Shown one piece after another: positions 9,148-33,320 of a stretch of DNA of 34,030 nucleotides. The position numbers and the translations under genes are program-made. Source of the DNA: Fragilaria crotonensis (lineage: Eukaryota; Bacillariophyta; Fragilariophyceae; Fragilariales; Fragilariaceae); contig JAKSYS010000669.1 of the NCBI GenBank assembly GCA_022925895.1, positions 1-34,030 of the forward strand. The letters run 5' to 3'. Positions within the stretch are counted from its first letter, which is position 1, and the number at the start of each line of letters is the position of its first letter. The notes beneath the pieces were generated by a model. The model did not search any database and was not told where the DNA came from. It saw only the letters and a program-made list of their open reading frames with translations.

Positions 9148-9152
9148 AACTC
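9148..9152. repeat. Target-site duplication of Copia-2, left copy
   Basis: AACTC directly before the LTR start TGAGAATCC. The same pentamer follows the right LTR at 16844-16848. Five bases is the usual duplication for Copia integrases. Confidence 0.75.
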
Positions 9153-9602
9153 TGAGAATCCAAAACGTCCAAGGCTCCGCCTCAGTGCCGCGCTCGCTGA
9201 GGAGCAGGATTAGTCGCCAGGCAGCGGTCGAACGTTCTCGATCGACAATGTCAGAACGAGACGAATCGGTTGCGATCACACGATGTATGCTATCGGGTGG
9301 GGCGGAGTTCTTTGACAGGTGTTGGAGTATTTGAAAGCGTATATACTTAGCGTTCCCGTACCTCTACACCCTTACGATCGATTGGACCGGCGAAGATGCG
9401 TTTGAGGTTTATAGGATGGCTAAAGTAGAAGTTGTGTGCGGAGGCCGAGAGGTGCTCCGCTGTTACACTATAGTAGTAATCCTTGTGCGTAGAATGTACG
9501 TGAGTCACAGTAGGGGATCATGTGTGAATCAATCACGTATGTGAATGCATGGATGTATACTGTACGGATGAGCAACGGTACAGCGGTTGATATGCACTGA
9601 TA
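9153..9602 (-). repeat. Copia-2 3' LTR
   Basis: Matches 16394-16843 at all but one position. Its left end is TGAGAATCC (element end GGATTCTCA). The right end is ambiguous by two bases: the purine tract GGGGGAG (minus strand, about 9605-9611) is followed by TGTATCAG, so the LTR may natively start TGTATC (to 9604). The other LTR shows only TATCAG before the duplication. Confidence 0.9.
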
Positions 9603-9604
9603 CA

Positions 9605-9611
9605 CTCCCCC
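9605..9611 (-). other. Copia-2 polypurine tract
   Basis: On the minus strand GGGGGAG lies directly upstream of the 3' LTR, where plus-strand DNA synthesis is primed in LTR elements. The position and composition fit; there is no other evidence. Confidence 0.5.
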
Positions 9612-9668
9612 ATTGTCAACATTGTAAATGTGGCAATGAGCAACAGGAGTGCATGAGGCGGGGTGCAA

Positions 9669-11141
9669 TTAGGTGTCACAGGGTTGCCATGGAGCACCGT
9701 AATGCCCCATCAAACGTCGGATATGTCGATGGTGCAACGTGGACCCAAGGGATTTGGTCAGAGAATCGGCAGTATTAATGATTCCCGGAATATGAGCGAG
9801 AATGATTTCACGATTAGCCTTCCATTCCTGAATGGCAAAATGCTGTATGTCGATGTGGCGCGATCGCGGGGTAGGACGGCTTGCGTTGATCATCAATATG
9901 GCGGCGGCGTTATCTTCGTAGAGCGTAGTGGGCTGGACTTGAGTGTAGCCCAGTTCGTTGAGGATGGACCGGAGGTACTTGGCAATCTTGGCGGCATGGA
10001 CGGCAGCAAGGAATTCTGCTTCAGTCGAACTTGTGGAGACTGTTGGCTGGATTTTTGACTTATATGCCAATGGTCCACCGCAGAACATGAAAACGAGGCC
10101 GGTGATGGATCGACGAGTCTTGAGGTCGGTCGCATGTGCCGCGTCGACATAGCCAGCAAGGAGAGTAGGTTGCGAGGGTTCCGGGAAGGAGGGAAGAGAT
10201 GGATCCGGGGAGAGGGGCTGAAACATTCCGGCGGGAAGGGACGAGAGGAGTTGTCGGCGCCAATAATGAAGGCCCCATGATTTGGTCATGCGTAGGTACC
10301 GCGCCACGCGACGAAGTGCATCATAATGAGCTTTGGCTGGGCGATCCGAGAAGCGTGCAAGAGTGGTAACCGCATAACCGATATCTGGGCGTGCGACAAC
10401 GTAGGCATAGATAAGAGCCCCAAGAACACTGCGATAGGAGAACCCGACTGAGCGTTCCAATGCTGCATGTTCCGCGGTGCCGTCGACGGGAGAGGTGTCA
10501 TAGTCCGTGAAGAGCTGTTGTAGCGTTGATGACGATATTGGTTCAATTGGCTTAGCATCTGTGTCGCGTGATCCGGCAGCAGACCATCCATAATGTGCAA
10601 GCAATTTATCGATGTATGACTCGCACGATACTTTGATGTATTTGTCGGTTTGATCGACGTCAACGCCATTAAACGAAGTTAGGACGCCTTCATCTCGGAG
10701 GTCGATACCATCTTCACGGCAGATAGTACGAACAAGCTCACGGATTGCTTCAGGATCAGAGCAACCAATTGCCAGATCATCAACCTGACGACAAATCAAC
10801 ATACGTTGTCCATTAAAAGTGCCTTGATACAGACTCCGCTCATGGACGGTGGACGTAAAACCGTGTCGCGCGATGACGCTGTTCACGAATTTTTCCCAAA
10901 GCGCACCTGATTCGGGGTGTCCTTGTAAAGCATGTTGAACAGGGAGGACCATATCGCGGGAAACTGGGATACCATGACGCGCCAAATACCAATCCGCATA
11001 TTGGTCATCGATAAATACAAAGGTTGGTTGCTCGGGGGGAGGCGAATTGGCGTATGCGTTCGTGGCATCGACCTTCAAACTGATATACCCTCGAAAGCAC
11101 ACAGGGCGAAAAACAAACGCATGCATGGTTGTTCGATGCAT
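9669..11141 (-). CDS. Copia-2 reverse transcriptase (main part) and RNase H
   Basis: The RT continues here from the preceding frame (11075-11449). ISLKVDATNAYANSPPPEQP is the first catalytic block. The second holds the catalytic aspartates in CRQVDDLAIG, with Q in place of the usual Y of YVDD. The RNase H domain has YVDAAHATDLKTRRSITG, the glutamate in STSSTEAEFLAA, YEDNAAAI and RSRHIDIQHFAI. The ORF ends 66 bases before the 3' LTR, as usual. The ATG at 11141 is not a native start. As sequenced, this part is reached only by a one-base backward shift from the upstream RT segment. Confidence 0.85.
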   Translation of the reverse strand: MHRTTMHAFVFRPVCFRGYISLKVDATNAYANSPPPEQPTFVFIDDQYADWYLARHGIPVSRDMVLPVQHALQGHPESGALWEKFVNSVIARHGFTSTVHERSLYQGTFNGQRMLICRQVDDLAIGCSDPEAIRELVRTICREDGIDLRDEGVLTSFNGVDVDQTDKYIKVSCESYIDKLLAHYGWSAAGSRDTDAKPIEPISSSTLQQLFTDYDTSPVDGTAEHAALERSVGFSYRSVLGALIYAYVVARPDIGYAVTTLARFSDRPAKAHYDALRRVARYLRMTKSWGLHYWRRQLLSSLPAGMFQPLSPDPSLPSFPEPSQPTLLAGYVDAAHATDLKTRRSITGLVFMFCGGPLAYKSKIQPTVSTSSTEAEFLAAVHAAKIAKYLRSILNELGYTQVQPTTLYEDNAAAILMINASRPTPRSRHIDIQHFAIQEWKANREIILAHIPGIINTADSLTKSLGSTLHHRHIRRLMGHYGAPWQPCDT

Positions 11142-11449
11142 GAGGAATATGTGTTCGCCAGTTTTAGCTGTGGCGCGGCGCGGGAAGATCCATCACAACA
11201 GTTTCTGGCCTTGCGTGTCCCATCAGCTTTTATCGAATAATTCCAATGTTGCCGAAGTATGATGGCATCTTTGGGAGGTATACAAGGTGCCCCATACATG
11301 TCCTGTTTCGCCATGGAATCTAATTGCTTGAACTCGCCATGTTGCCAATCTGTCCAGTTCGGGAGACGCATGAGTTTCCGGCGAGTGAAGCTTCCGATGG
11401 CTCGTTCTTCCGGTGTCCCGTGACTCGTTGTATTTAGGGATCGCATCAT
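11075..11449 (-). CDS. Copia-2 RT N-terminal segment
   Basis: The conserved start of the Copia RT domain: the pattern W-x2-W-Q-x2-E-x2-QLDSMAKQDMYGAPC, then the nucleotide-handling block WNYSIKADGTRKARNCCDGS and a tail RLFFALCAFEGIS. This joins naturally to ISLKVDATNAYAN in the next frame. The break lies at about 11085-11095 (GAGGGTATATC on the minus strand) and looks like a single missing base. The frame is open upstream beyond its first ATG to about 11525, where it overlaps the integrase ORF end. Confidence 0.7.
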   Translation of the reverse strand: MMRSLNTTSHGTPEERAIGSFTRRKLMRLPNWTDWQHGEFKQLDSMAKQDMYGAPCIPPKDAIILRQHWNYSIKADGTRKARNCCDGSSRAAPQLKLANTYSSCIEQPCMRLFFALCAFEGISV

Positions 11450-11508
11450 GAGAATATCGGTTTCCGAGGAAGTGGAGAGACTCGTGTTGTCAATGTCGTC
11501 ATTTGACT

Positions 11509-13242
11509 TTACTGTCGGGTCAAATGTGTACGATCGGGGCTTGATAGAATGGTGTTGATAACTCGGAGCTGGTCGACGGACAAGTGGACTGGTGATTCAC
11601 GGCGATTCGCGATTGGTATGTATCGGTCGGGGGCGAAGACGATGCGAAAGGAAGACTCCTCGGATGATGCAGCCGCAGTCAAGGCAAGAATCGCGGACTC
11701 GGCAGTGAAAACAGGAGTGTCATTGACAGATACAATGAAGGATCCAATGTATTTCCGACGTGCATTCTTGATTCGCGCAGCTGAAGTGCGTGGAATGATC
11801 TCGGACACATACGCACGTTTGCGTATATGACATTCGGAGACCTCAAACCCCAAGGTTGGATGGTCACAAACGATTGCAGGGGTAAGCTTGTCAAGTCGGT
11901 CAAAAGGGTCATCCGATACCGAGAGATCCAAAGGGGATAGATCGACCAAGTCGGGTATAACCGGATTGTCGCTGTTCATTTGACGAAGGATCTGGACGTT
12001 CGGAGGTGGGGTGCCGAGAACGTCGTTCATACCCTCATCGAATCGAGCATGTGTGGCAGTCTTCACCACGGCACTATCAATGTCGTAGTAATACATAATC
12101 TTCAAGGATCGCGAATATCCCAGGAAGATGCCGAGTCGGGAGTTTGGAACCAGTTTTCCATACCGTACCGTTGTAGGCCGAACATGCACACGGCACCCAA
12201 AGGTCCTCAGTTTGGACAGATTTGGTAACTCGGAACCGCACATCTCGTGCGGGCTTGAAGGGCGAGACCCATGTGGGACAAAGTTATAAAGTCGCACATA
12301 ATGATAAAACGCATATGGCCAGAAACTCGGTTGGAGGCTCGCGCCGGAGAGCATAGCTCGCAGTGCATCAGCAATTGTCTGGTGAGGTCGCTCGCCTGGG
12401 CCGTTTTGATTCGAGGAGTCAGGGCCAGTTAATTCCACCGTGTAGCCGAAATCTGCAAAGATGCGAAGGATGTCGCGGCTTTTGCCAAGCTCACCGCCAC
12501 CATCCATGCGCACGTATTTGTCTGGACAGCTCGGGGCGTTGTTGGCCAACCAGTTATTAACCCAATCGATTGGTGGGGCTTTGGATGTAAAAGCACGACC
12601 GTAAAGCCGACCACTAAAGTGATCTGTGATCAAAGCGTAGCATGTTTCTCCATTCAATCCGATGAGATTATGCTGACGGCTCTTGTCGTGATTCTTCTGG
12701 ACCATGAATCCGAAATCGATTGAAATCCCCTGATTGCATACCGTTGACCGCATAATGGTGGCAGTACCCGAAGGCTGTTTACGAAGTTTTGCGGCCAAGC
12801 AGACAGGGCATTCTTCAAGTGCAGTGGGGAGTGTAAACTCGGGCATCCCCTTCACGAAACGATGCATGGTGGACAGACGTCGGAAGTTCAAATGTCCCAA
12901 ACGTTGGTGCCAAAGCATGCGGAGTGCTGAACGAGAGAGGGAGCGGACAAGATACGAAACTGATTCGCTGACGGAGGAGTGCACCGTATCGTCATCACTA
13001 TGTATCATCGGATCCGGCGTCGTACTCGTTGGATCCTGGTTTGCCTGTGATTCCTGCGGTGACGATAAAACGATGGATTCGTTTTCGGCGATCGCCCCGC
13101 ACCCATGTGGTCTCGGCCCGTTATTGTCAGAGGGTGAACCTGACAAAGGGCCTACCGAAAATCCGATAGTGGGGTGGATCCTGAGCAATTGGTGCATGGC
13201 GACATAGCGGGATGATCTGGTGGATTGTGACACAACTGACAT
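11509..13242 (-). CDS. Copia-2 integrase
   Basis: This ORF of about 577 codons holds the GAG-pre-integrase zinc-binding region (WHQRLGHLNFRRL ... CPVCLAAK). The catalytic triad is DFGF (first D in GISIDFGFM), VRMDGGGEL (second D) and the E in NQNGPGERPHQTIADALRAML. The C-terminal part has FWPYAFYHYVRLYNFVPH and a region typical of Copia integrase tails (RTFGCRVHVRP, GIFLGYSRSLKIMYYYD). The family inserts element cDNA and makes 5-bp duplications. The ORF overlaps the protease ORF by 91 bases in a frame displaced by one, and ends 60 bases before the first ATG of the RT frame. Confidence 0.88.
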   Translation of the reverse strand: MSVVSQSTRSSRYVAMHQLLRIHPTIGFSVGPLSGSPSDNNGPRPHGCGAIAENESIVLSSPQESQANQDPTSTTPDPMIHSDDDTVHSSVSESVSYLVRSLSRSALRMLWHQRLGHLNFRRLSTMHRFVKGMPEFTLPTALEECPVCLAAKLRKQPSGTATIMRSTVCNQGISIDFGFMVQKNHDKSRQHNLIGLNGETCYALITDHFSGRLYGRAFTSKAPPIDWVNNWLANNAPSCPDKYVRMDGGGELGKSRDILRIFADFGYTVELTGPDSSNQNGPGERPHQTIADALRAMLSGASLQPSFWPYAFYHYVRLYNFVPHGSRPSSPHEMCGSELPNLSKLRTFGCRVHVRPTTVRYGKLVPNSRLGIFLGYSRSLKIMYYYDIDSAVVKTATHARFDEGMNDVLGTPPPNVQILRQMNSDNPVIPDLVDLSPLDLSVSDDPFDRLDKLTPAIVCDHPTLGFEVSECHIRKRAYVSEIIPRTSAARIKNARRKYIGSFIVSVNDTPVFTAESAILALTAAASSEESSFRIVFAPDRYIPIANRRESPVHLSVDQLRVINTILSSPDRTHLTRQ

Positions 13243-14060
13243 GTCATGCCGTCAGTAGGGTCGAGGACATCTGGCGCGGCCGGATCCGGTGAATGATCCG
13301 AACACAAACGACGAACTGCGGTAGGCCACGGCGGAATGGGAGCGATGTGTTGTTCATGCGTTGGAAGAATCAGTGCCTCAGTGAATGTCAGACCGCCTCG
13401 ACGCGAAATCGGTTGAATAGGAATGAAGACATCCTGACTGTGTCGCAAACGATGTGGGAAATGAATGAAACCGGCAATGTCTGAATGGCTCGACATATAA
13501 TATCCCGAAGTGCGCAACTGTGTTGAGATGGCAGAATGGGAAATGATGACACCGGGGATCGTGGGAGTGTGGTAGGTTCGGACGAATACGAACTGGGGGG
13601 CTCCCCCAATCCCACGATTATCGGTGGGGACACACAGAAAACCGACACCCAGGGGGCGATGTACGTGGTCACCAGCGTCGAAGAGACGGATGCTGGATTT
13701 TCCGAGCAGGCGGTACGCAAAAAGGAGTTTGGAGTCATTGACGGTACATGCCATCGACCCGTTGTCGGCGTGGGCGTAGACGGTGGCTGTGTCGGGATCG
13801 TAGGTCTCGGCCAAGCGACGAACGACGACAGGGTCGCACGTTGGGGTTGGCTCGATGACGACAGTCTCTGCGGAGACCGGGTAGTCGTTGTCGACACCCA
13901 GAATGTGAACAGACTGGATGGAAAAATCCGAGAAACAGGCTTCAAAGTCGCCCGTGGGGTCATCGTTTGACACATGGATGGAATGCTGGCGGTAACCTGT
14001 AGTAAGGTCATCATCGTCATTGTCATCGACTGACGAGGGGTAGGCGTAGTGTCGTCCGGG
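13152..14060 (-). CDS. Copia-2 aspartic protease region
   Basis: A minus-strand frame open from 14060 to the stop at 13152, with no ATG near its beginning, so it must be reached from Gag. The protease active site is AHADNGSMACTVNDSKLLF, with DNG in place of the usual D-S/T-G. A run of aspartates precedes the domain. The C-terminal end has a CxxC...CxxC pair (CQLCHNPPDHPAMSPCTNC) just before the frame changes to integrase. The protease would cut the Gag-Pol precursor. Relative to Gag the frame is +1 (or two successive -1 steps). Confidence 0.65.
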   Translation of the reverse strand, partial: PGRHYAYPSSVDDNDDDDLTTGYRQHSIHVSNDDPTGDFEACFSDFSIQSVHILGVDNDYPVSAETVVIEPTPTCDPVVVRRLAETYDPDTATVYAHADNGSMACTVNDSKLLFAYRLLGKSSIRLFDAGDHVHRPLGVGFLCVPTDNRGIGGAPQFVFVRTYHTPTIPGVIISHSAISTQLRTSGYYMSSHSDIAGFIHFPHRLRHSQDVFIPIQPISRRGGLTFTEALILPTHEQHIAPIPPWPTAVRRLCSDHSPDPAAPDVLDPTDGMTCQLCHNPPDHPAMSPCTNCSGSTPLSDFR

Positions 14061-16155
14061 TCAGCAGAAGGTTGCAAAGCTGAAGGCTGCGGACGGTGCG
14101 AGTGTTGGTGTTGCCGGGCATTGCACGCGATCGAGCGCTCGCGGCATTGAGACGAGTACGGAATTGCGAGTGAGAGTTTGCAACTTGGGCACGTAAAGCT
14201 GGGTGACGTTGGGCGAGTGATTCTGCCACGATGTAATCCACAAAACGGTTGCAATCTGTCAACGTATGACCGGTCTGACCACAACCAAGACAAGTGGTAC
14301 TGGACTGTTGATTCTGAGCGATGGCATTGACGATGAGATCAACATCTGCCTCAGGGAGATGCATGCTTTCGGCGTCGTCCATTTCGGTCGTCGTTTCCAA
14401 TCTTCGCATGATGGCCGTCGGTGGAGCACGCAAAGATGCAGGAGATGGACGAGAACCGGGAGCATCACGGCCAATTTTGTCGGCATACTCGACAAAAGTT
14501 GTAGCGATCTGAGGCAATGCCAACTTGAAGGGGAGAGACCCGCCCTTTCCGGCGGATTTATCACGTTCGACAAGTCGACGGAACTCATTGCGCCATTCAG
14601 TAGAGAGGTTTCGAACGGCCAAGTCGAGGGCTTCGGATTCCGTATAAGTTCGCATCGCCAAACGTTCACGAGCGATGAACTCTTGCAAACGTCGTAGGTA
14701 GAGACTAAAAGTCTCAGATCGTCGATGACGCGGGATTTCGTTGGCTGTCGAATAAACGGAATGAAGGATCGGATGATGCAAACGAAGGATGTTGTAGATG
14801 GCATTATAACCGGCATTTGCTGTCGACCCCTCGACGGCCTCAAGTTCGCGAGAATTAGAGGGGAAAGTGTCTGGTTTGATGAGAAGACTGTATAACAGAT
14901 GTCCCATAAATGATTGTTGATCGCGGACCGATTGTGGTAACATCATCCACCAGCATCCATGAACGTTATCTTCTTCAACAGATTCGTATGGTGGACACCA
15001 TACGCCCCATTGTAGACAAGTGGACACTAAAAATTTGTACCAATGTACAAAAGAATCGTTTTTGCTGGCATCAAACTTTGGAATCGTCACCTTGCGGAAA
15101 TCCTTATACTTGACTTCGGAAACCTGGAACTGTGACATATAATCTTGAAAAGTCTCGGCACCAAAACTGACTTCATTGTTGAATGGGTGGGACCGAGTAG
15201 GTGTCCGGAGAGATGGCGTTCGCTCGGCGGTGTGATCGAATAGGCGAGCACGTCGGCTCGACGCGTTGTTGGTACCAGTAGGATGTCCACCATAAGAGTC
15301 GTAGTTGTCCCGTAGGTCACTACCCGGGGCACTCGATGTGGTATTGAGTGTTTCCATGATTATCGGAGTGCCACGGAAATTTGGACCAACATTTGACGCC
15401 ATGGATCCAGGGTGAGCGCGATAACGTGCATCCATCGTATCAGGTTCTGGATGACGTTCGTCACGATCGGCATTTCGCGTTCCAGGAACGGGCCCAGGCT
15501 CAGCCCGAGTGCTGGACGCACTGGGTAGGTAGGTAGCTGATACGTTATCTTGGGCTGTATCGGGTACTGTCGCCGGGTTAGTGGTTGCTCCTGGGGCGGG
15601 GAAAATGCCGCTCGCACCACCACGAGCTTGTTGAGGCACCGGGGATGATGCAGGGAGTTCCGACACTTGATCCAGAAATTCGGTTTCGGAGACATTTGAT
15701 GGCGGGCCGGGACGACTGAACGGATGTTCAACGGTAGTATCCATAATCGTAGGTATTGTCCTTGGTGTTGGCAGGGCCTGATCCGGAGACTTGAAACGGA
15801 TCAAAAGAGGAATTTGAATCGCGACAATCGGTAGAGTGCGATGTGCAACAGCCTGCATAGTTAAGCGTTGCAGTCCCGCCGTGCGAAGGGATACAATCAA
15901 TCCTCCTTCGCGAACGTCGAATATACCAAAAGTGGCGTTGATAAATGCCTCCATCATGTTTGCATTTATCCACATTGTGTCCTCGAGAATTTGGATAACT
16001 GTCTCGCGAATAGTATCGCGATAGTTGTCACGAAGAGACGACGTTACCATATCGTATAGTTCGGCCAGCGGAAGTTCAGCGGAGGGGCTGTCTTTTACGT
16101 CAAGGCTGACGATAAAGCAGTCATTTAGCAGCGCAATCTCCTCAGCGACCGTCAT
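14023..16155 (-). CDS. Copia-2 Gag with CCHC zinc knuckle
   Basis: A 710-codon ORF starting at the ATG at 16155, 238 bases inside the 5' LTR. The N-terminal 120 residues are compact and mixed in composition. A proline-, serine- and threonine-rich stretch follows (about 130-330). A helical capsid-like region with FRKVTIPKFDASKNDSFVHWY and ESEALDLAVRNLSTEWRNEF spans about 340-560. A CCHC knuckle, CLGCGQTGHTLTDC, sits at residues 622-635. The knuckle binds element RNA during packaging. The last 25 residues look out of frame: a neighbouring frame reads a more natural proline- and serine-rich linker. The true C-terminus is therefore uncertain. Confidence 0.88.
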   Translation of the reverse strand: MTVAEEIALLNDCFIVSLDVKDSPSAELPLAELYDMVTSSLRDNYRDTIRETVIQILEDTMWINANMMEAFINATFGIFDVREGGLIVSLRTAGLQRLTMQAVAHRTLPIVAIQIPLLIRFKSPDQALPTPRTIPTIMDTTVEHPFSRPGPPSNVSETEFLDQVSELPASSPVPQQARGGASGIFPAPGATTNPATVPDTAQDNVSATYLPSASSTRAEPGPVPGTRNADRDERHPEPDTMDARYRAHPGSMASNVGPNFRGTPIIMETLNTTSSAPGSDLRDNYDSYGGHPTGTNNASSRRARLFDHTAERTPSLRTPTRSHPFNNEVSFGAETFQDYMSQFQVSEVKYKDFRKVTIPKFDASKNDSFVHWYKFLVSTCLQWGVWCPPYESVEEDNVHGCWWMMLPQSVRDQQSFMGHLLYSLLIKPDTFPSNSRELEAVEGSTANAGYNAIYNILRLHHPILHSVYSTANEIPRHRRSETFSLYLRRLQEFIARERLAMRTYTESEALDLAVRNLSTEWRNEFRRLVERDKSAGKGGSLPFKLALPQIATTFVEYADKIGRDAPGSRPSPASLRAPPTAIMRRLETTTEMDDAESMHLPEADVDLIVNAIAQNQQSSTTCLGCGQTGHTLTDCNRFVDYIVAESLAQRHPALRAQVANSHSQFRTRLNAASARSRAMPGNTNTRTVRSLQLCNLLLTRTTLRLPLVSR

Positions 16156-16381
16156 ATTGTTGTGGCCGAAGTGTTAGGAAATTTTAAAGTTCGGGAACTT
16201 TTATCTCCACGTTCCACGCTCACTTTGTATGAATCTTCACCGGACGTGTCACTGGCTTGACCGGAGTATCACGTGCGTGGTTGATTTATAACCTCTGATT
16301 TTCGGGAAACGTGTCGTTCGGGATTGGATCTATCCTTTGCCACGTTTTTTATTTAGAATATCCTTAACCCTAGCAGAGTTT

Positions 16382-16393
16382 GGGCTCATAACC
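16382..16393 (-). other. Copia-2 primer-binding site (candidate)
   Basis: Directly inside the 5' LTR the minus strand reads GGTTATGAGCCC, resembling the Copia initiator-tRNA primer site (TGGTATCAGAGC) with some differences. It starts at the LTR end, where reverse transcription is primed. Confidence 0.4.
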
Positions 16394-16843
16394 TGAGAAT
16401 CCAAAACGTCCAAGGCTCCGCCTCAGTGCCGCGCTCGCTGAGGAGCAGGATTAGTCGCCAGGCAGCGGTCGAACGTTCTCGATCGACAATGTCAGAACGA
16501 GACGAATCGGTTGCGATCACACGATGCATGCTATCGGGTGGGGCGGAGTTCTTTGACAGGTGTTGGAGTATTTGAAAGCGTATATACTTAGCGTTCCCGT
16601 ACCTCTACACCCTTACGATCGATTGGACCGGCGAAGATGCGTTTGAGGTTTATAGGATGGCTAAAGTAGAAGTTGTGTGCGGAGGCCGAGAGGTGCTCCG
16701 CTGTTACACTATAGTAGTAATCCTTGTGCGTAGAATGTACGTGAGTCACAGTAGGGGATCATGTGTGAATCAATCACGTATGTGAATGCATGGATGTATA
16801 CTGTACGGATGAGCAACGGTACAGCGGTTGATATGCACTGATA
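16394..16843 (-). repeat. Copia-2 5' LTR
   Basis: This LTR differs from 9153-9602 at one base. In element orientation it holds a TATA-like AAGTATATACG about 190 bases from its inner end (plus-strand GCGTATATACTTAGC near 16580), a candidate promoter. It is followed on the right by the AACTC duplication. Confidence 0.92.
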
Positions 16844-26899: not shown

Positions 26900-27066
26900 G
26901 GCGGGACTCTGAATCGCCCCGCCTCAGTGGTTGCTTGTTATGTGGCATGGCTGTAGAATGAGTCGACGGTAGATGGTAGTATGCATTTGGTGGTAACGAT
27001 GTCCTTACTGAGTGCCCTTCCCACCACCCTGTACGAGTAGTATCTCCCGTTGAAGTTGCTCGGAGT
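26900..27066 (-). repeat. Split direct repeat B2 (outer)
   Basis: 167 bases identical to 27354-27520. It forms the 3' terminus of the element. An 11-base unique spacer (27067-27077) separates it from A2. Confidence 0.9.
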
Positions 27067-27077
27067 GGGCGGGTGGG

Positions 27078-27355
27078 GAAGCTAAAAACTAGACTACTAG
27101 TATCGCAAACGCCCTGTTGGTGACCGTCTTAGCGGTGACCAACCTTGTGTGCTTTGCCGTGTTGTCCGAATGCGATGCCGTTGCGTCGCTTTCAAACTAA
27201 CAATGAGACTTGAGTGGCATTCCGTTCACGACGCCGAGTATCTTTTATATATATGGAGAGCTACGACTCGCTGTATGAATGTTCTGCGCTGCGTAGCTGT
27301 TGTGTAGAAATGTAGTGGGCAGCCATCCCCCCTTGCACTTCGCTACCACTGACGG
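27078..27355 (-). repeat. Split direct repeat A2 (inner)
   Basis: 278 bases identical to 33043-33320. It abuts and overlaps repeat B1 by two bases (GG, 27354-27355). Confidence 0.9.
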
Positions 27356-27385
27356 CGGGACTCTGAATCGCCCCGCCTCAGTGGT
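27345..27385. other. Hairpin across the A2/B1 repeat junction
   Basis: ACCACTGA (27345-27352) pairs with TCAGTGGT (27378-27385), and GGCGGG (27354-27359) pairs with CCCGCC (27372-27377). Together they give 14 bp with one bulged C and a 12-base loop. The left arm comes from repeat A and the remainder from repeat B, so it forms only where the two repeats abut: here, and in a circle joining the element ends. Confidence 0.7.
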
Positions 27386-27520
27386 TGCTTGTTATGTGGC
27401 ATGGCTGTAGAATGAGTCGACGGTAGATGGTAGTATGCATTTGGTGGTAACGATGTCCTTACTGAGTGCCCTTCCCACCACCCTGTACGAGTAGTATCTC
27501 CCGTTGAAGTTGCTCGGAGT
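27354..27520 (-). repeat. Split direct repeat B1 (inner)
   Basis: 167 bases identical to 26900-27066, lying directly downstream of the recombinase ORF. Confidence 0.9.
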
Positions 27521-27585
27521 ACCCAAAGCGCCAAAGGCAAAGAAGGGTGGGAAAACAAGAGCGAAGCGACGGAGGGTGGGGACGT

Positions 27586-28665
27586 TCAGCCCGGCCCGAG
27601 GCGATAGCCGCCACCGTGTAGCATGGCGGCTGCCAGGCCCGTCATGACAGGTTGGGCTTGGACGTGAAGATATCGGTAGAGCTCGTCAGAGCGCCAGCGA
27701 CCAACCATGCGGATTTTGTCACAGGGAACACCCGCGCATAACAAGGCCATGGCGCCCCCGGCGCGGGTGGAGCGGGCGGAAACGTCGGTGGCGGCGAAGG
27801 CGGGGTCGGGGTAGAGGACGAGGGCGGAGCGAAGGCGGTGAGTGACGTCGGTGGAGAGGACAAATTGAAGGCGTGCGTCTGGTGACGTCGCAAAGGCATT
27901 CAAAGGGGTGGTTGGGGGGGAATGGAGGCTCCGTAAGGTTAGGACGCGCGCAACTAAAGCCAACACCGGGCATAAGGTGGGGTGCCCGGAGCGGCCATGG
28001 CCGATGCGCTCGTTGCGCACGCCATTCTTTTGGCGTGTGAACGTCAACGTGGCAAAGGTGGCCGCGCGCACGTCGTCCAAGGGACACACGGAAATGTCGA
28101 GGGCACGGGTACCAATCCAGAGCTGAAGATCTTTCAACCGGAAGAGGTTGTCGGTGGGGTCAGGAACACCGAGGTATTCCCCGGGCCGTAACAGGAAGTA
28201 GAAACCGAATACTAAACATTCGGCAGCCGCGGCGGCGGCGGGAGTGGCCTCCAGTGTGGCCAAGTGCACCATGCGTGTGAGGAGCCCAATCGGCAGCGGC
28301 TTTACGCGTGATGGCGGGTCATCGGCGGTGGCCCAGGCGCGGTACAATGAGCTGAGCCGGAAATCCAGGTGACCATGGGGACTTAAGCGAGGGTCTGGGG
28401 CCCCCAACCCGGCATACGTCTGTCCCACCGAGCGGAGGGCATCCTCCACCGTGCGAGAGCGGACGGGGTGCCGGCCGGGAGCGATGGTGCCGTCGCGGAG
28501 GCGTTGGGCAAAGATTTGGAGGAGAGGGACAGGGTCACGGGGGAGGTGATCGGGGACAACGCCAAGGTCGGTGCAGAACTTGACCCACAATTGCCAGGAT
28601 TTGGAGGTGGAGGTGACACGGTTAGGGGAAACGCGCCGGGCTGACGCTTGCAAACAGAGCGCCAA
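27586..28665 (-). CDS. Tyrosine recombinase of the DIRS-order element
   Basis: An ORF of about 360 codons. The N-terminal half is the SAM-like core-binding domain (TSTSKSWQLWVKFCTDLGV). The catalytic half has the first arginine in FGFYFLLRPGEYLG, then DVSARSTRAGGAMALLCAG, and finally IRMVGRWRSDELYRYLHVQ with the tyrosine nucleophile. Where most tyrosine recombinases have H-x-x-R, this one has R-S-T-R, so the box-II histidine is arginine. The family joins circular element DNA to the target. No ATG lies near the beginning: the frame follows a TGA at 28666-28668 and the first usable codon is TTG. It overlaps the RNase H ORF by 44 bases, so translation may depend on frameshifting or reinitiation. 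Confidence 0.85.
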   Translation of the reverse strand: MALCLQASARRVSPNRVTSTSKSWQLWVKFCTDLGVVPDHLPRDPVPLLQIFAQRLRDGTIAPGRHPVRSRTVEDALRSVGQTYAGLGAPDPRLSPHGHLDFRLSSLYRAWATADDPPSRVKPLPIGLLTRMVHLATLEATPAAAAAAECLVFGFYFLLRPGEYLGVPDPTDNLFRLKDLQLWIGTRALDISVCPLDDVRAATFATLTFTRQKNGVRNERIGHGRSGHPTLCPVLALVARVLTLRSLHSPPTTPLNAFATSPDARLQFVLSTDVTHRLRSALVLYPDPAFAATDVSARSTRAGGAMALLCAGVPCDKIRMVGRWRSDELYRYLHVQAQPVMTGLAAAMLHGGGYRLGPG

Positions 28666-29068
28666 TCAGCATAGAGCTGGTGGACGGCGGCAGGGTCCAG
28701 ATGCGCCACGGCAATACCTGTGGATAGTGGGTGTCGAAGTGGGTGAGTAAGTTCTCCGCAGACAAGTGCCACAAGCGGGAAGCATCGTCGGCCATCACGT
28801 TCGCCGCCCCTGCAATGTGCGAGTGGGTGGGGACGTAGCGGAAATGTCGCTGGTGGAGAGAGTTGAGTCGTAAGAGATAGGCTCGAGGACCTAAGGACGT
28901 GGCAGAGCCTTTCTCGGACCAGGCTAGCGCCACCGTGTTGTCGGTAGCTAGCCACAGCGTGCGCTCTGCGACGTCGACGTGACGTGCGAGCACATCCTTG
29001 TGCGCAATGAGTGCTGTGAGCTCTAAATCAGAGATGGAAATGGTGCCGTGGGGATTGTCGGCGGACAC
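28622..29068 (-). CDS. RNase H domain of the DIRS-order element
   Basis: Holds the second half of RNase H: TISISDLELTALIAHKDVL with the catalytic glutamate, the aspartate in LWLATDNTVALAW, and ANVMADDASRLWHL with the final aspartate. The first aspartate (FLGASDASGNGMGG) lies at the end of the RT ORF in another frame. The break lies near 29080-29090 and looks like one extra base, since the better protein reading passes from PFPV into SQQALVSADNP. The frame has no ATG start, so it is a part of the RT polyprotein rather than a separate gene. Confidence 0.75.
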   Translation of the reverse strand: MSADNPHGTISISDLELTALIAHKDVLARHVDVAERTLWLATDNTVALAWSEKGSATSLGPRAYLLRLNSLHQRHFRYVPTHSHIAGAANVMADDASRLWHLSAENLLTHFDTHYPQVLPWRIWTLPPSTSSMLIGALFASVSPARFP

Positions 29069-30773
29069 TAACGCTTGTTGGGATTGCTACGGGAAACGGC
29101 ATGCGCCATAGTGTAGGCGGAAAAACGTTTCCGTCGCCGTTGTGGAACCACACACCACCCATTCCGTTGCCGCTGGCATCGCTGGCTCCGAGGAAAAGGG
29201 GCTCGCTTGGGTGTAGCTCACGGAGGCGAGTAGGCCTGTCGCGTAACGTGTCGGCCAATGCCGTGAAGTCGGCTGCCATGTCGCGCACGCGTGTCGTGAT
29301 GCGCACCCGATTGCCAGTTGCGGATTGGAGGGAATGTTGTAGGATGGAGAACAGGCCTCGGGAGCCTGGCAGCGCAGGGGACATGGAGCGAAGCTCTCCT
29401 AGCAGTTTATGCCAGAAGGCCACGGAGACGCATTTGCGGGGAGGATCAAGGTGACGCAGCAGTTCATACAGGCGCTCCAGCCGGTGTGGCGGCAATTGCA
29501 AGGTCCCAGCGTGTGTGTCGAGATCCCACCCCAAAATGCGTTTCCTTGTACTCCAAAAAGCGTCACCCTTTAGCATCTTCTTGACGGACGCGGGCTCCTT
29601 TCGATATATCGGATCGCCCGTTTCCAAAGGGCGTAAGACATCGTCGATGGCTGCTAACGTATGGCGCAGGACGTTCCGCTGTTGGGACGCCGTTTGTGCC
29701 ATAAGCAGAAAATCGTCCACGTAGACGTCCACACTTGCTACCGGCGGTCGTCCATGCTTGTGCCGGTGCACGTCATGGACGGACGGCCGTATAATTGGCT
29801 TGTCCTTGACGATGTCGGGCGGGGGTGTTGCGGCAACTGCCTCCAACCGATGCATCGTGCTGCGGGGTCGCTCGCTGGAGGAGCGGCGTCGCAGGCGGCT
29901 ATTGGACAGGTCACAAGCTGTCTCGGTCAGTACGCAGAAGTATGGCGGGGATTCCACCCAGCCCATGGGTAGGGCTAACGGGAATGCCACCAACAATGGT
30001 TGGCCAAGCGAAGTCGGTAGAACGACTCCTAATTTAGGGATGTCACGTATATTTAACCAGACTCGGTAGAACCCATCCGCAATATCGATTTTGGACAGAT
30101 ATACCGGTCCGTAGCGCGGGTCGCTCTCGACTATCGTGCGGACAACCCGTTGCAGTGCTCGGCCAAACTGCATGGCCTCTTTGGGGGCAAGTGCAACGGT
30201 TTCTTCGTTCACCGCGGAGAAACTGTAGTCCACAATCAGTCGAGGTCTTCTGTCTCGCTGTGGCACTACCCCCAGCGGTGAAAGGCGGAGGTTCGGCCAG
30301 TCTTTAACCATCTCATATGGGAGGACCGTCCAGTAGCCTTGCATGCAAAAGTCAAGGATCTCTGTGAAAACAAATTCTTGGTAGTCGCGAGACGATTTGT
30401 GCGGTCCGCGTATCATGGCACGACGTCGTTTCTCCGTGGTCCATGGTGGTGTAGATGTTAGGAGGTTGGCCCCTCGTAACCTCAGATGGTTCAGCAAGCG
30501 CGCCGCTTTGTGGGGAAGCGTTTGCACATCTGGGGACAAATTTGACGTTCCTCTGGCCCCTGCGACGTGTGCGGTCCAACCGGATTCACGAACGGACAAT
30601 GCGGCACGATATGCTAACTTACCAAGCGTTTCCTCTGTCGCCGACAGGTCCGACGCCTTCCGTTTGGATCCTGTCGTGTGGCCAGTGTCGGGCCTTACAT
30701 CACCCCCTCCAGGCCAGGGCGGTGCCGTGCGAAGCCAGGACAACTCCTCCTCGGAGTCATCCTGGCGTCCCCG
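29028..30773 (-). CDS. Reverse transcriptase ORF of the DIRS-order element
   Basis: Open directly after the Gag UGA in the same frame. The first ATG lies over 100 codons inside, so expression as a Gag-RT fusion is likely. RT motifs in order: LRLSPLGVVPQRDRRPRLIV, SKIDIADGFYRVWLN (first catalytic aspartates), FPLALPMGWVESPPYF, and the catalytic YVDDFLLMAQ. KEPASVKKMLKGDAFW and LGWDLDTHAGTLQLPPHR follow. The ORF ends in the start of RNase H (GASDASGNGMGGVWF). It copies element RNA into DNA. The RT type (DGFYR, SPPYF, YVDDF) is of DIRS-like elements, distinct from the Copia RTs in this window. Confidence 0.87.
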   Translation of the reverse strand, partial: RGRQDDSEEELSWLRTAPPWPGGGDVRPDTGHTTGSKRKASDLSATEETLGKLAYRAALSVRESGWTAHVAGARGTSNLSPDVQTLPHKAARLLNHLRLRGANLLTSTPPWTTEKRRRAMIRGPHKSSRDYQEFVFTEILDFCMQGYWTVLPYEMVKDWPNLRLSPLGVVPQRDRRPRLIVDYSFSAVNEETVALAPKEAMQFGRALQRVVRTIVESDPRYGPVYLSKIDIADGFYRVWLNIRDIPKLGVVLPTSLGQPLLVAFPLALPMGWVESPPYFCVLTETACDLSNSRLRRRSSSERPRSTMHRLEAVAATPPPDIVKDKPIIRPSVHDVHRHKHGRPPVASVDVYVDDFLLMAQTASQQRNVLRHTLAAIDDVLRPLETGDPIYRKEPASVKKMLKGDAFWSTRKRILGWDLDTHAGTLQLPPHRLERLYELLRHLDPPRKCVSVAFWHKLLGELRSMSPALPGSRGLFSILQHSLQSATGNRVRITTRVRDMAADFTALADTLRDRPTRLRELHPSEPLFLGASDASGNGMGGVWFHNGDGNVFPPTLWRMPFPVAIPTSVSVRRQSPRHHFHL

Positions 30774-30776
30774 TCA
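30734..30776 (-). promoter_or_regulatory. Predicted stop-codon readthrough signal between Gag and RT
   Basis: The stop UGA at 30774-30776 is followed by CGG, a known leaky context. After a seven-base spacer (CGGGGAC) the minus strand forms a hairpin: arm GCCAGGATGACTCC (30766-30753), loop GAGGA, arm GGAGTTGTCCTGGC (30747-30734). All 14 positions pair, with two G-U pairs. Both flanking ORFs are in the same frame. Confidence 0.7.
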
Positions 30777-32987
30777 AGCCGATGCATTGGGGGCCGACGA
30801 CGCCGCGAGGTGCTCTCGGCAATAGGTGAGTAAACGGGCGCGCTCCCCGGGGGTTGCAAAATTTGCGTGGGTTTGCGCCCGACCACAATTATCGAAACAC
30901 GCACCCCGCAACCACCAGGCCAGGCAGAACTCCTGACCGGCGTCGTTCGCCGGTGGCCGATGTGCCTGAATCACAGGGCTGGTGCCTCCCGGTCGCACAA
31001 CGATGGCCGCAAAATCAGCATCGTGTGTTGGGTTTTGGACGCGCGTAGCCTGCTGCTCTGGCTGCGCCCCTCTCGTGGTGCCCGTCGTCAAAGTCGACAC
31101 TCCCGTGCTGACTGTGCCGGTGCTGGTCGAGGTAGTGGTTCCTGTACCGCGCCCTCCTCCAGCACTACCGCCGCTACCGCTTCCTCTGCCGATGACCGTA
31201 TACTCAGATGGGAGTGGGACCCAGTTCGACGACAACGGAAAGGTACCTCGTTTGAGCTCCGTCACGAGCGAACGGAACTCCGGTAGCTCGACGCCGGTGT
31301 TGTCTTCGGCTATGTTCGTGCTCACGGCATGCAAGTACTCGAACACGTTAACCTGAACCGACCTGATAATACACGGGAAGAACATGTTGGCAATGTTCGG
31401 ATTGCCCGCGATTTGTAAGTACCGATCCGTGATGTATGGCGTCGCATTATTGATCGCGGAAACCAATTGCCACACACGCTCCACGAAGGTGTGAGTGGGA
31501 CCGACGCCTTGGAAGAGTGCTTGGCATAGCACCGCGTATCGTGTGAGAGTTATAGCTACGTCCAATGTGTCACGTGGGAAACGTAGCCTCTCCTTTTCTT
31601 TCAACGCAGTGTAATCGTGCAGGCTGGCCGCTTGTTCGCCTTGCGCTAGTTGGTTGCTGACGTTTGAGAGTGCCAAGGCCTCGAGGTGGCTTGCGGTTCC
31701 TGAGTAGGCCACTTGGAAAGGCTGACAGCCTGAGTTTAGGTCGTCCACGCCGTGTCCCACGAACATGAAACCAATTATCATTTGCTTCAAGCCAGTTGTG
31801 ATGATCGGGGTATAGAGTGCAGTGTCTAAACCCCGTGCTTGACACACTCGATGGAATTCTTGTGTGAGGAGCGTGTGTTGCTCGCTCTTTGCGCAGTTGG
31901 CGAGTCGCCCCCACACAGGTGCCACGTCTTCTGGGCGCGATACGTTGCAGAATCGAAGCAGCGTGCGGTACGTCTCCCTGTACACCTCTTGTATAAGTTT
32001 CGGTTCGCGGGTGACCCCTCGCTCACCAGCTAACGGTCCCTCTCCTCCTCGAGCACTCGTTAGTGCTCGCAAGGCTCCAGCAAGGGTGCCCGTAACTTCG
32101 GCGGTTGCTGGGTCCGGGTCAGCAAGTGCCGGTAGGTCCGCACGTACCTTGCTTATCATGTACCGATAGACCTGTTCAGGCAGGTGTACCGCGGTTAGGG
32201 GATAGAGTACGCAAGGCGACCCGTTCTGCGCTCCCCCTCCTCCTCTCGCCGTACAAGCTGCCCTCAGCCATATGAGAATGTCGGTGCAGGCTGCCACTTC
32301 ATCTCGGGCCTGCATGCTACCGTAAAGCTCTTGATAGACAACCTTCGCCGATAAACCTCGGCGGTGTATGATGAGGGCGGCGTAGTGCCCCGGGATCAAT
32401 TGCACATTTCGTGGTCTCACCACTTCAGTCTCGGGATCCGCCTCGGTGTACGGCCCCAGGGGTACCATGGGGTCCTCCCAGGTCAGTAAGTGGACATTCA
32501 TGGCTGCTAACGTGGGGACGCGCACAGGCGCCTGCACAAGATGGAACACCGAGTTTGGTACGTCCACTGCAGGATATTGATGAGGCATGATGTCACCTTG
32601 CAGGCCGATGACCTGGTCATGGAAACCAGATGCAGGCTCTCCGGGCAAGTCCATGTAGCGCATGAACCTATGGAGTACCGTAACCTCTAGGGTATTGCCG
32701 GGTCCCGTGACCAGTACAAGGAAGTTCATTGGCTGGCGGTCACTGAGATGAACTGTCTGGTCACGGAGATTTGCTGGGGCTGGGACTGCCCCGGCTCCCC
32801 CGTCGACGAAACGATATCCGAATAGGTATTCGGCTACCCGACCGGCAGCCGGTCCATTAACGGCGTCACTTAGAAGTTCTCGATACGTGCGAGGTCGAAA
32901 CACCCCCGCAGGGGCAACGGGCACTGGTGGTGCTCCCGGAGCTTCGGGGGCGACACCAGGTACTCCCACTTGGAATGGTAGGGCCAT
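30774..32987 (-). CDS. Gag-like ORF of the DIRS-order element
   Basis: A 737-codon ORF from the ATG at 32987, 55 bases inside repeat A1. The first 30 residues are rich in proline, alanine and valine. A long globular part follows, with few recognisable motifs. A Gly/Ser/Thr-rich linker lies at about 600-660. The C-terminus has a cysteine-histidine cluster, CLAWWLRGACFDNCGRAQTH (C-x7-C-x3-C-x5-H), a likely RNA-binding knuckle. The position, length and terminal zinc cluster support a Gag role; I recognise no domain beyond that. It ends in UGA within the readthrough signal. Confidence 0.75.
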   Translation of the reverse strand: MALPFQVGVPGVAPEAPGAPPVPVAPAGVFRPRTYRELLSDAVNGPAAGRVAEYLFGYRFVDGGAGAVPAPANLRDQTVHLSDRQPMNFLVLVTGPGNTLEVTVLHRFMRYMDLPGEPASGFHDQVIGLQGDIMPHQYPAVDVPNSVFHLVQAPVRVPTLAAMNVHLLTWEDPMVPLGPYTEADPETEVVRPRNVQLIPGHYAALIIHRRGLSAKVVYQELYGSMQARDEVAACTDILIWLRAACTARGGGGAQNGSPCVLYPLTAVHLPEQVYRYMISKVRADLPALADPDPATAEVTGTLAGALRALTSARGGEGPLAGERGVTREPKLIQEVYRETYRTLLRFCNVSRPEDVAPVWGRLANCAKSEQHTLLTQEFHRVCQARGLDTALYTPIITTGLKQMIIGFMFVGHGVDDLNSGCQPFQVAYSGTASHLEALALSNVSNQLAQGEQAASLHDYTALKEKERLRFPRDTLDVAITLTRYAVLCQALFQGVGPTHTFVERVWQLVSAINNATPYITDRYLQIAGNPNIANMFFPCIIRSVQVNVFEYLHAVSTNIAEDNTGVELPEFRSLVTELKRGTFPLSSNWVPLPSEYTVIGRGSGSGGSAGGGRGTGTTTSTSTGTVSTGVSTLTTGTTRGAQPEQQATRVQNPTHDADFAAIVVRPGGTSPVIQAHRPPANDAGQEFCLAWWLRGACFDNCGRAQTHANFATPGERARLLTYCREHLAASSAPNASA

Positions 32988-33042
32988 ATCGTCGGCTGGC
33001 TGGAAAACCGAGTTCTGACGTCGATATGTGCTCGAACACCAA

Positions 33043-33320
33043 GAAGCTAAAAACTAGACTACTAGTATCGCAAACGCCCTGTTGGTGACCGTCTTAGCGG
33101 TGACCAACCTTGTGTGCTTTGCCGTGTTGTCCGAATGCGATGCCGTTGCGTCGCTTTCAAACTAACAATGAGACTTGAGTGGCATTCCGTTCACGACGCC
33201 GAGTATCTTTTATATATATGGAGAGCTACGACTCGCTGTATGAATGTTCTGCGCTGCGTAGCTGTTGTGTAGAAATGTAGTGGGCAGCCATCCCCCCTTG
33301 CACTTCGCTACCACTGACGG
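33043..33320 (-). repeat. Split direct repeat A1 (outer)
   Basis: 278 bases identical to 27078-27355. It forms the 5' terminus of the element and carries its likely promoter. Its right end is CCACTGACGG, then flanking TGTGTGTTG. Confidence 0.9.
33208..33219 (-). promoter_or_regulatory. TATA box of the DIRS-order element (candidate)
   Basis: The minus strand reads TATATATAAAAG about 220 bases upstream of the Gag ATG, inside the terminal repeat. A second copy lies in A2. Position and sequence fit a polymerase II promoter. Confidence 0.4.

Follow-up and report, generated by a model that had tools for sequence, protein, structure and literature searches.

Introduction

Stop-codon readthrough of type II is described as a UGA codon with CGG or CUA directly after it and a stem-loop 6–12 nt downstream (PMC11166343), and the type II cases tabulated in the available portions of PMC3542737 are all viral. 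The same portions describe UGA followed by C as a leaky stop context, and structures starting about 8 nt 3' of the stop as common at readthrough sites. Here we analyse a 34,030-nt stretch of DNA from the diatom Fragilaria crotonensis (assembly GCA_022925895.1, contig JAKSYS010000669.1, positions 1–34,030; hereafter the window), which carries on its minus strand a retrotransposon of about 6.4 kb (33320–26900) with open reading frames (ORFs) for Gag, reverse transcriptase (RT)/RNase H and a tyrosine-recombinase-like protein. From comparison of related copies, we propose that the junction of its Gag and RT ORFs is very probably a programmed, type II-like UGA readthrough cassette that would give Gag together with some Gag-RT.

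An earlier annotation made from the DNA letters alone (hereafter the sequence-only reading) had suggested such a signal and knew of no report of one in DIRS-, Ngaro- or PAT-type elements. In agreement with this, literature searches, which covered few subscription papers, found no recognisable report of readthrough in DIRS, Ngaro, PAT or VIPER elements, nor a study on how elements of the DIRS order set RT against Gag. The word "readthrough" is absent from the main text, in the portions covered, of PMC8547959, PMC3266345, PMC3783388, PMC6681497, PMC9210276 and PMC5890265.

Results

The junction in the window

The features of the junction, in the order in which they are read on the minus strand, are as follows.

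30774..33053, minus strand: Gag ORF of 759 aa between stops, 737 aa when counted from its first ATG
30774..30776, minus strand: UGA stop of Gag, the proposed readthrough site
30767..30773, minus strand: 7-nt spacer CGGGGAC, whose first triplet CGG (30773–30771) is the 3' context of the stop
30753..30766, minus strand: 5' arm of the hairpin, a GCCAGG core plus 8 nt
30748..30752, minus strand: hairpin loop of 5 nt, as folded in the window
30734..30747, minus strand: 3' arm of the hairpin, ending in a CCUGGC core
30714..30725, minus strand: APPW motif, codons 17–20 past the stop, conserved protein ahead of the first AUG
29028..30773, minus strand: RT ORF in the frame of Gag

This layout bears out what the sequence-only reading had described: Gag and RT share one frame (33053–30774 and 30773–29028) and are split by a single UGA with CGG next; a 14-bp stem with two G-U pairs, no mismatch and a five-base loop begins 7 nt past the stop (30776–30734 from stop to stem end); and the RT frame runs for more than 100 codons without an ATG, the first being codon 120. 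Folded in isolation, the hairpin has an energy of −25.9 kcal/mol (z −5.65), and none of 200 dinucleotide shuffles was equally stable. The coding strand of the element holds no other hairpin of at least 14 bp with a loop of 3–10 nt (mean 0.0 in 20 shuffles), and the rest of the window holds two, one of them inside the element on the opposite strand. When a 151-nt stretch around the junction was folded, the stem still formed, with a z of only −1.72 for the whole stretch and 10 of 200 shuffles equally stable, because the region is GC-rich. The case therefore rests mainly on the comparison of copies.

Conservation of stop, spacer and basal stem among copies

The F. crotonensis assembly searched for copies comprises 62.1 Mb in 881 contigs; the published draft is given as 61.85 Mb in 879 contigs in the part of PMC9476933 covered. 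A search with the RT protein returned 84 matches, 45 of which, the window included, have their start among query residues 1–44. The window and 40 matches that reach the RT start, picked regardless of any motif, make up an RT-anchored set of 41 junctions. The four of the 45 outside this set are C582, C715 and C824, obtained later through the motif pattern and having spacers of 7, 7 and 6 nt, and C111, which has no Gag upstream of RT.

UGA ends Gag in all 41 RT-anchored junctions. In 40 of them it is followed by exactly 7 nt and GCCAGG, and each of these 40 has the CCTGGC partner 3' of it. The stop and spacer on which the sequence-only reading had relied were accordingly retained, whereas the CGG was retained in part: the triplet after UGA is CGG in 24 of the 40 and CTA in one, and the remaining 15 carry others (CGC 4, CTG 3, CGA 2, CGT 2, and CTC, CAG, TGG and CCG once each). 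The +4 base is C in 39 of 40. When spacers of 7 and 6 nt were compared genome-wide, the 7-nt pattern matched 52 times (46 TGAC, 3 TGAT and 3 TGAA) and the 6-nt pattern 8 times; reversed-pattern controls gave no match.

The copies are far apart. When the 300 nt preceding the stop are clustered by single linkage at 80% nucleotide identity, the 40 motif junctions form 33 clusters, and their median pairwise nucleotide identity is 0.58. In each comparison that allowed an estimate, synonymous divergence is either saturated or greater than 0.8. We take this to mean that an unselected 12-base motif would not have survived. A one-off nonsense mutation in Gag-RT is ruled out by the 40 of 41 junctions.

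One reading of this conservation is that the hairpin is an RNA element with another role, such as packaging, dimerisation or protein binding, and neighbours the stop by chance. The basal stem sequence is invariant in the 40 junctions, as a protein-binding site could require. Such a role would leave unexplained why 40 of 41 junctions keep the same 7-nt distance to UGA and 39 of 40 keep UGA-C, and one near pair of copies (C196 and C499) has a stem of different sequence close behind its UGA. We regard a chance neighbour as highly improbable.

Constraint on the stem at the RNA level

Codon and folding tests were carried out on the 29 of 40 motif junctions that are free of stops over 120 codons before and 100 codons after the UGA; the 11 decayed copies were excluded. 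These clean copies were drawn from junctions with GCCAGG and CCTGGC, so their fixed bases are partly given by the selection of copies, and the weight lies on the 40 of 41 junctions collected blind to the motif that have these bases, L041 being the sole RT-anchored junction thereby excluded.

With that reservation, codon 3 after the stop is NGC in 29/29 copies although it encodes different residues (G 20, R 7, C 1, S 1), and codon 4 is CAG in 29/29, where the same elements elsewhere use CAG 376 and CAA 320 times. The same holds on the other arm: the codon preceding the tryptophan encoded in the 3' arm (the stem Trp) is NNC in 29/29 (P 20, S 6, A 2, T 1), and a C directly follows the stem-Trp codon in 29/29 (L 19, P 7, Q 2, H 1). 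Fixed bases with varying residues indicate that the amino acid gives way and the stem is kept. Conservation of the stem by way of the protein is ruled out, since the wobble and first-base patterns track the RNA and not the protein. Against synonymous shuffles, the folding energies of the 29 copies have a mean z of −2.99 and a median of −3.21.

Minimum free energy folds with 30-nt flanks contain at least five of the six basal pairs in 38 of 40 junctions and four pairs in the other two. The stem proposed by the sequence-only reading is thus common to 40 of the 41 junctions, but not at its full length: stems of 13–14 bp occur in few copies, and the common core is a basal stem of 6–9 bp with a variable apical part.

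Because the six basal pairs are invariant, they are by themselves uninformative on covariation, which was therefore examined at stem positions 7–12. Among the 33 cluster representatives, the two arms of one copy pair with each other in 131 of 198 cells (0.662), arms swapped between lineages pair at 0.508 (sd 0.027), and none of 5000 swaps matched the own arms. An arm-sliding control paired at 0.38–0.49, and the swap result was the same on 35 and on 42 unique arm pairs (0/2000). Swaps alone keep relatedness in, and the clustering step and the slide control remove it in part. Pair 7 is G-C, G-U, A-U or U-G in 30 of 35, and pair 8 takes six pair types. The inner stem therefore carries the compensatory changes that the sequence-only reading had named as a check, and chance pairing in GC-rich DNA, which it had warned must be weighed, is ruled out by the conservation among copies, the shuffles and the swap controls.

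In some genes, selenocysteine insertion is also promoted by a hairpin near UGA, and the UGA here could accordingly encode selenocysteine or another special residue. The residues around the site vary, UGA terminates four of nine other ORFs checked in the window, and a search of the element (26900–33320) against Rfam, whose families include SECIS, gave no match at E ≤ 1. We attach next to no credence to this explanation.

Frame and protein-level constraint past the stop

Of the 41 junctions, 34 have Gag and RT in one frame, and 32 have a UGA that is in frame with the two. The nine that remain are L041 and eight motif-group copies whose frames disagree near the junction; those frame-disagreeing junctions that were translated show insertions or deletions at or near it.

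Past the stop, an [AP][PL]PW motif occurs within 70 codons in 29/29 clean copies, its Trp sometimes being the stem Trp. An APPW or PPPW whose Trp is not the stem Trp occurs in 22 of 29. In the alignment of the 29 copies, the two prolines are fixed and their wobble bases vary (0.62 and 0.41), which is a mark of protein-level selection past the stop. The ratio of nonsynonymous to synonymous substitution (dN/dS) is 0.03–0.13 in Gag (5 usable values of 11) and 0.10–0.20 in RT (4 usable of 11); of the 22 values, 10 were saturated and 3 involved stops, and the usable dS values, mostly above 1, are rough.

These data also bear on the possibility that RT is made by termination and reinitiation, or from a non-AUG start just past the stop, with the hairpin assisting. 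The stop does adjoin the RT frame, and three of the 29 clean copies (L015, L034 and L046) have a Met codon no more than 11 codons past it. The first in-frame AUG in the window is nevertheless codon 120, and in 21 of the 22 copies with a stem-independent APPW or PPPW this motif precedes the first AUG. Reinitiation, moreover, needs no common frame, yet most junctions share one and the translated exceptions show indels, and it has no need of UGA over UAA or UAG. We consider it very unlikely that RT is expressed in this way.

Relatives beyond the genome

Protein searches gave 159 relatives of Gag at E ≤ 1e-5 and 1225 relatives of RT at E ≤ 1e-10 among 8000 candidates scored. Among the 120 Gag relatives listed of the 159, at least seven are from F. 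crotonensis itself. A simple pattern finds that 100 of these 120 end 13–28 aa past a conserved ER..L block, at least P0212 among them having an altered tail; the other 20 are truncated, shifted or, by eye, missed by the pattern (P0148 and P0191). P0144 passes from Gag into RT but without the junction. Proteins of up to about 1730 aa were allowed, and the longest among the 120 RT relatives listed of 1109 is P0251, with 1273 aa, the gene model of a decayed copy on C733 in which the junction is skipped. Judged by their lengths, none of the listed proteins could contain Gag and RT intact and joined through a sense codon.

P0251, as an NCBI gene model that joins Gag to RT, is what one would expect if an intron removed the stop and an ordinary spliced mRNA made Gag-RT. 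Conservation of protein past the stop together with conservation of an RNA stem would be unexpected within an intron, and the annotation of at least one further copy gives Gag and RT as two proteins of a single contig (P0194 and P0059). We therefore hold splicing to be a remote prospect.

In viral contigs, protein searches found no relatives, and the 120 listed in a pattern scan contained no Gag or RT (best E 0.57). A single distant RT came from the bacterial genome collection, where it lies in a Nitrospira metagenome-assembled genome on a contig of low coverage (L201). At 1258–1309 this contig has, in the RT frame, UGA UGG and, 7 nt past the stop, a perfect 9-bp stem that differs in sequence. 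By eye, the stretch upstream of this site reads as what we take to be a bacterial protein; the contig looks chimeric near the site and was not counted.

The element and its surroundings

The remaining features of the element are listed below.

33043..33320, minus strand: split direct repeat A1 of 278 nt, with 100% identity to A2
28622..29086, minus strand: RNase H part of pol, in a different frame from RT, labelled from alignment to relatives
27586..28665, minus strand: third ORF, tyrosine-recombinase-like, with LLRPGEYLG, RSTRAGGA, GRW and YRYLH blocks common to relatives
27354..27520, minus strand: split direct repeat B1 of 167 nt, with 100% identity to B2
27078..27355, minus strand: split direct repeat A2, the partner of A1
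26900..27066, minus strand: split direct repeat B2, the partner of B1

The repeat order A1 - B1 A2 B2 is that of the DIRS order (Ngaro/PAT-like), and the reverse transcriptase expected of that order is present as a YVDD block in the RT translation. The RT ORF matches Pfam RVT_1 at E 2.1e-4 with 21.5 bits, under the gathering cut-off of 29.6; Pfam searches gave no match for the Gag ORF or the RNase H part, and no hit to a Pfam methyltransferase, a trait relevant to the distinction of Ngaro from PAT/DIRS1, was found in the four ORFs scanned. The identity of A1 with A2 and of B1 with B2 suggests that the element inserted recently. A break interrupts the RNase H part of this copy: the RT frame ends at 29028 and the remainder lies in another frame. 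Such a break despite identical terminal repeats would reflect either recent decay or nanopore indel errors.

The sequence-only reading had called this a tyrosine-recombinase element. That assignment draws on the split repeats and on the blocks of the third ORF, which we take to be tyrosine-recombinase motifs. The third-ORF protein of the window has no match in Pfam, PHROGs or NCBIfam, an alignment of third-ORF proteins has no PDB match, and the third ORFs of other members match unnamed PHROGs weakly (best E 0.0022). We accordingly use the label as a putative one, based on motifs and repeat structure and not on a Pfam or PDB match. In 8/8 loci compared (L001–L008), the putative recombinase is encoded in frame −1 with respect to RT; its ORF overlaps RT by 280–553 nt (28383–28665 in the window) and lacks an ATG in its first 150 nt, so that expression of the element may involve two successive recoding events. 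A slippery heptamer common to the RT/recombinase overlaps was looked for in the eight loci and none was found.

Two RT ORFs of this family, P0058 (C82) and P0248 (C418), are called adenylate kinase in NCBI models, apparently a misannotation. Elsewhere in the window, an element named copia-like by eye occupies 9152–16692, with identical 300-nt end repeats (9152–9451 and 16393–16692) and its coding parts in separate ORFs. The silicon-transporter family has 19 matches in the same genome, 18 of them above its cut-off, which confirms the diatom host.

Discussion

The copies share an in-frame layout of Gag and RT and a conserved stop, spacing and stem; their inner stem covaries, and the region is constrained at both the RNA and the protein level. 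These tests on copies support the type II interpretation put forward by the sequence-only reading. Most ribosomes would terminate at the UGA and release Gag. In a minority, a near-cognate tRNA would decode the UGA, assisted by the following C (usually within CGG) and by the hairpin from 7 nt downstream, and these ribosomes would stay in frame and extend Gag into a Gag-RT fusion. That readthrough takes place, how efficiently, which amino acid is inserted and where the hairpin lies relative to the ribosome are points on which we infer from the sequences, and setting the ratio of Gag to Gag-RT would be the purpose of the cassette.

Several observations weigh against this proposal. The triplet after UGA is other than CGG in 16 of the 40 motif junctions. 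L041 (on C196) and its near copy C499 (L199) have UGA CAU followed by a long hairpin of unrelated sequence, which in L041 occupies 2855–2944; by eye, the Gag frame of C499 continues beyond the UGA into RT-like sequence. In a distant element on C9 (L198, C9:89200–90300), the upstream ORF and RT lie in one frame either side of UGA CAG, and this stop has no hairpin nearby, so the hairpin may be confined to the present element group. No similarity was found between the upstream ORF of the C9 element and the C-terminus of this Gag. The C9 element also has a 13-bp hairpin about 40 nt further on, and its RT is 37% identical to P0118. Within the clean set, the z against synonymous shuffles is weak for L014 (−0.93) and L015 (−0.79), and the stem Trp is the sole APPW/PPPW Trp in seven of 29 copies (L011, L015, L017, L018, L019, L037 and L046); 67 of the 198 inner stem cells are unpaired. 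All counted junction DNA comes from one genome, the relatives elsewhere being proteins only. The gag and pol of Candida albicans Tca2 are likewise split by a UGA with a putative 3' structure, and this junction directed no readthrough in Saccharomyces cerevisiae, according to the portions of PMC2194720 covered.

If the proposal of programmed UGA readthrough is true, the cassette gives a ready answer on how one large group of the DIRS order sets RT against Gag, type II-like signals extend from viruses to a retroelement order for which we found no earlier report, and diatom ribosomes respond to such signals. The roughly 40 natural variants, with spacing fixed and the inner stem varied, are a natural test set for the promotion of UGA reading by a 3' stem. 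We put forward more tentatively, from the same sequences, that a group of diatom tyrosine-recombinase-type retrotransposons may have acquired, by evolution of its own or by inheritance, a cassette of alphavirus type, UGA-C with a hairpin, between Gag and RT, which to our knowledge would be the first in the DIRS order, and that perhaps two serial recoding events, a readthrough and a frame shift, give Gag, Gag-RT and Gag-RT-YR (YR, tyrosine recombinase).

In its architecture, the element resembles Ngaro, PAT and VIPER elements such as the Ngaro of Cafeteria burkhardae, which has the same A1-ORFs-B1-A2-B2 repeats with gag, RT-RNase H and YR ORFs (PMC8547959, in the portions available). In its junction, it resembles the Tj1 family of Ty3/gypsy elements in fission yeasts, for which the portions of PMC10085805 covered describe the same in-frame Gag-UGA-Pol arrangement with a conserved CT next and propose readthrough, and do not report a conserved hairpin. 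Tj1 differs in being a long terminal repeat element of another retrotransposon order, its Pol consisting of protease, RT and integrase. Gammaretroviruses, as the sequence-only reading had noted in agreement with the sections of PMC5009743 and PMC3542737 covered, likewise use an in-frame stop between gag and pol (type III) to make Gag and a little Gag-Pol. They do so with UAG and a compact pseudoknot, whereas the junction described here has UGA-C and a plain extended hairpin; the type III combination of UAG, purine-rich octanucleotide and compact pseudoknot was not found, pseudoknots themselves not having been searched for.

The closest likeness is to the type II signals of the alphavirus replicase, of tobraviruses, furoviruses and pecluviruses, and of coltivirus VP9', which have the same UGA, CGG or CUA, and extended stem-loop about 8 nt on (PMC3542737, in the portions covered). 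The present junctions show UGA, mostly CGG, and a stem-loop 7 nt downstream. They differ from the viral cases in lying in a chromosomal diatom retrotransposon of tyrosine-recombinase type, where the signal, known from its sequence, would join Gag to RT, and in having a basal stem, GCCAGG/CCUGGC, that does not vary.

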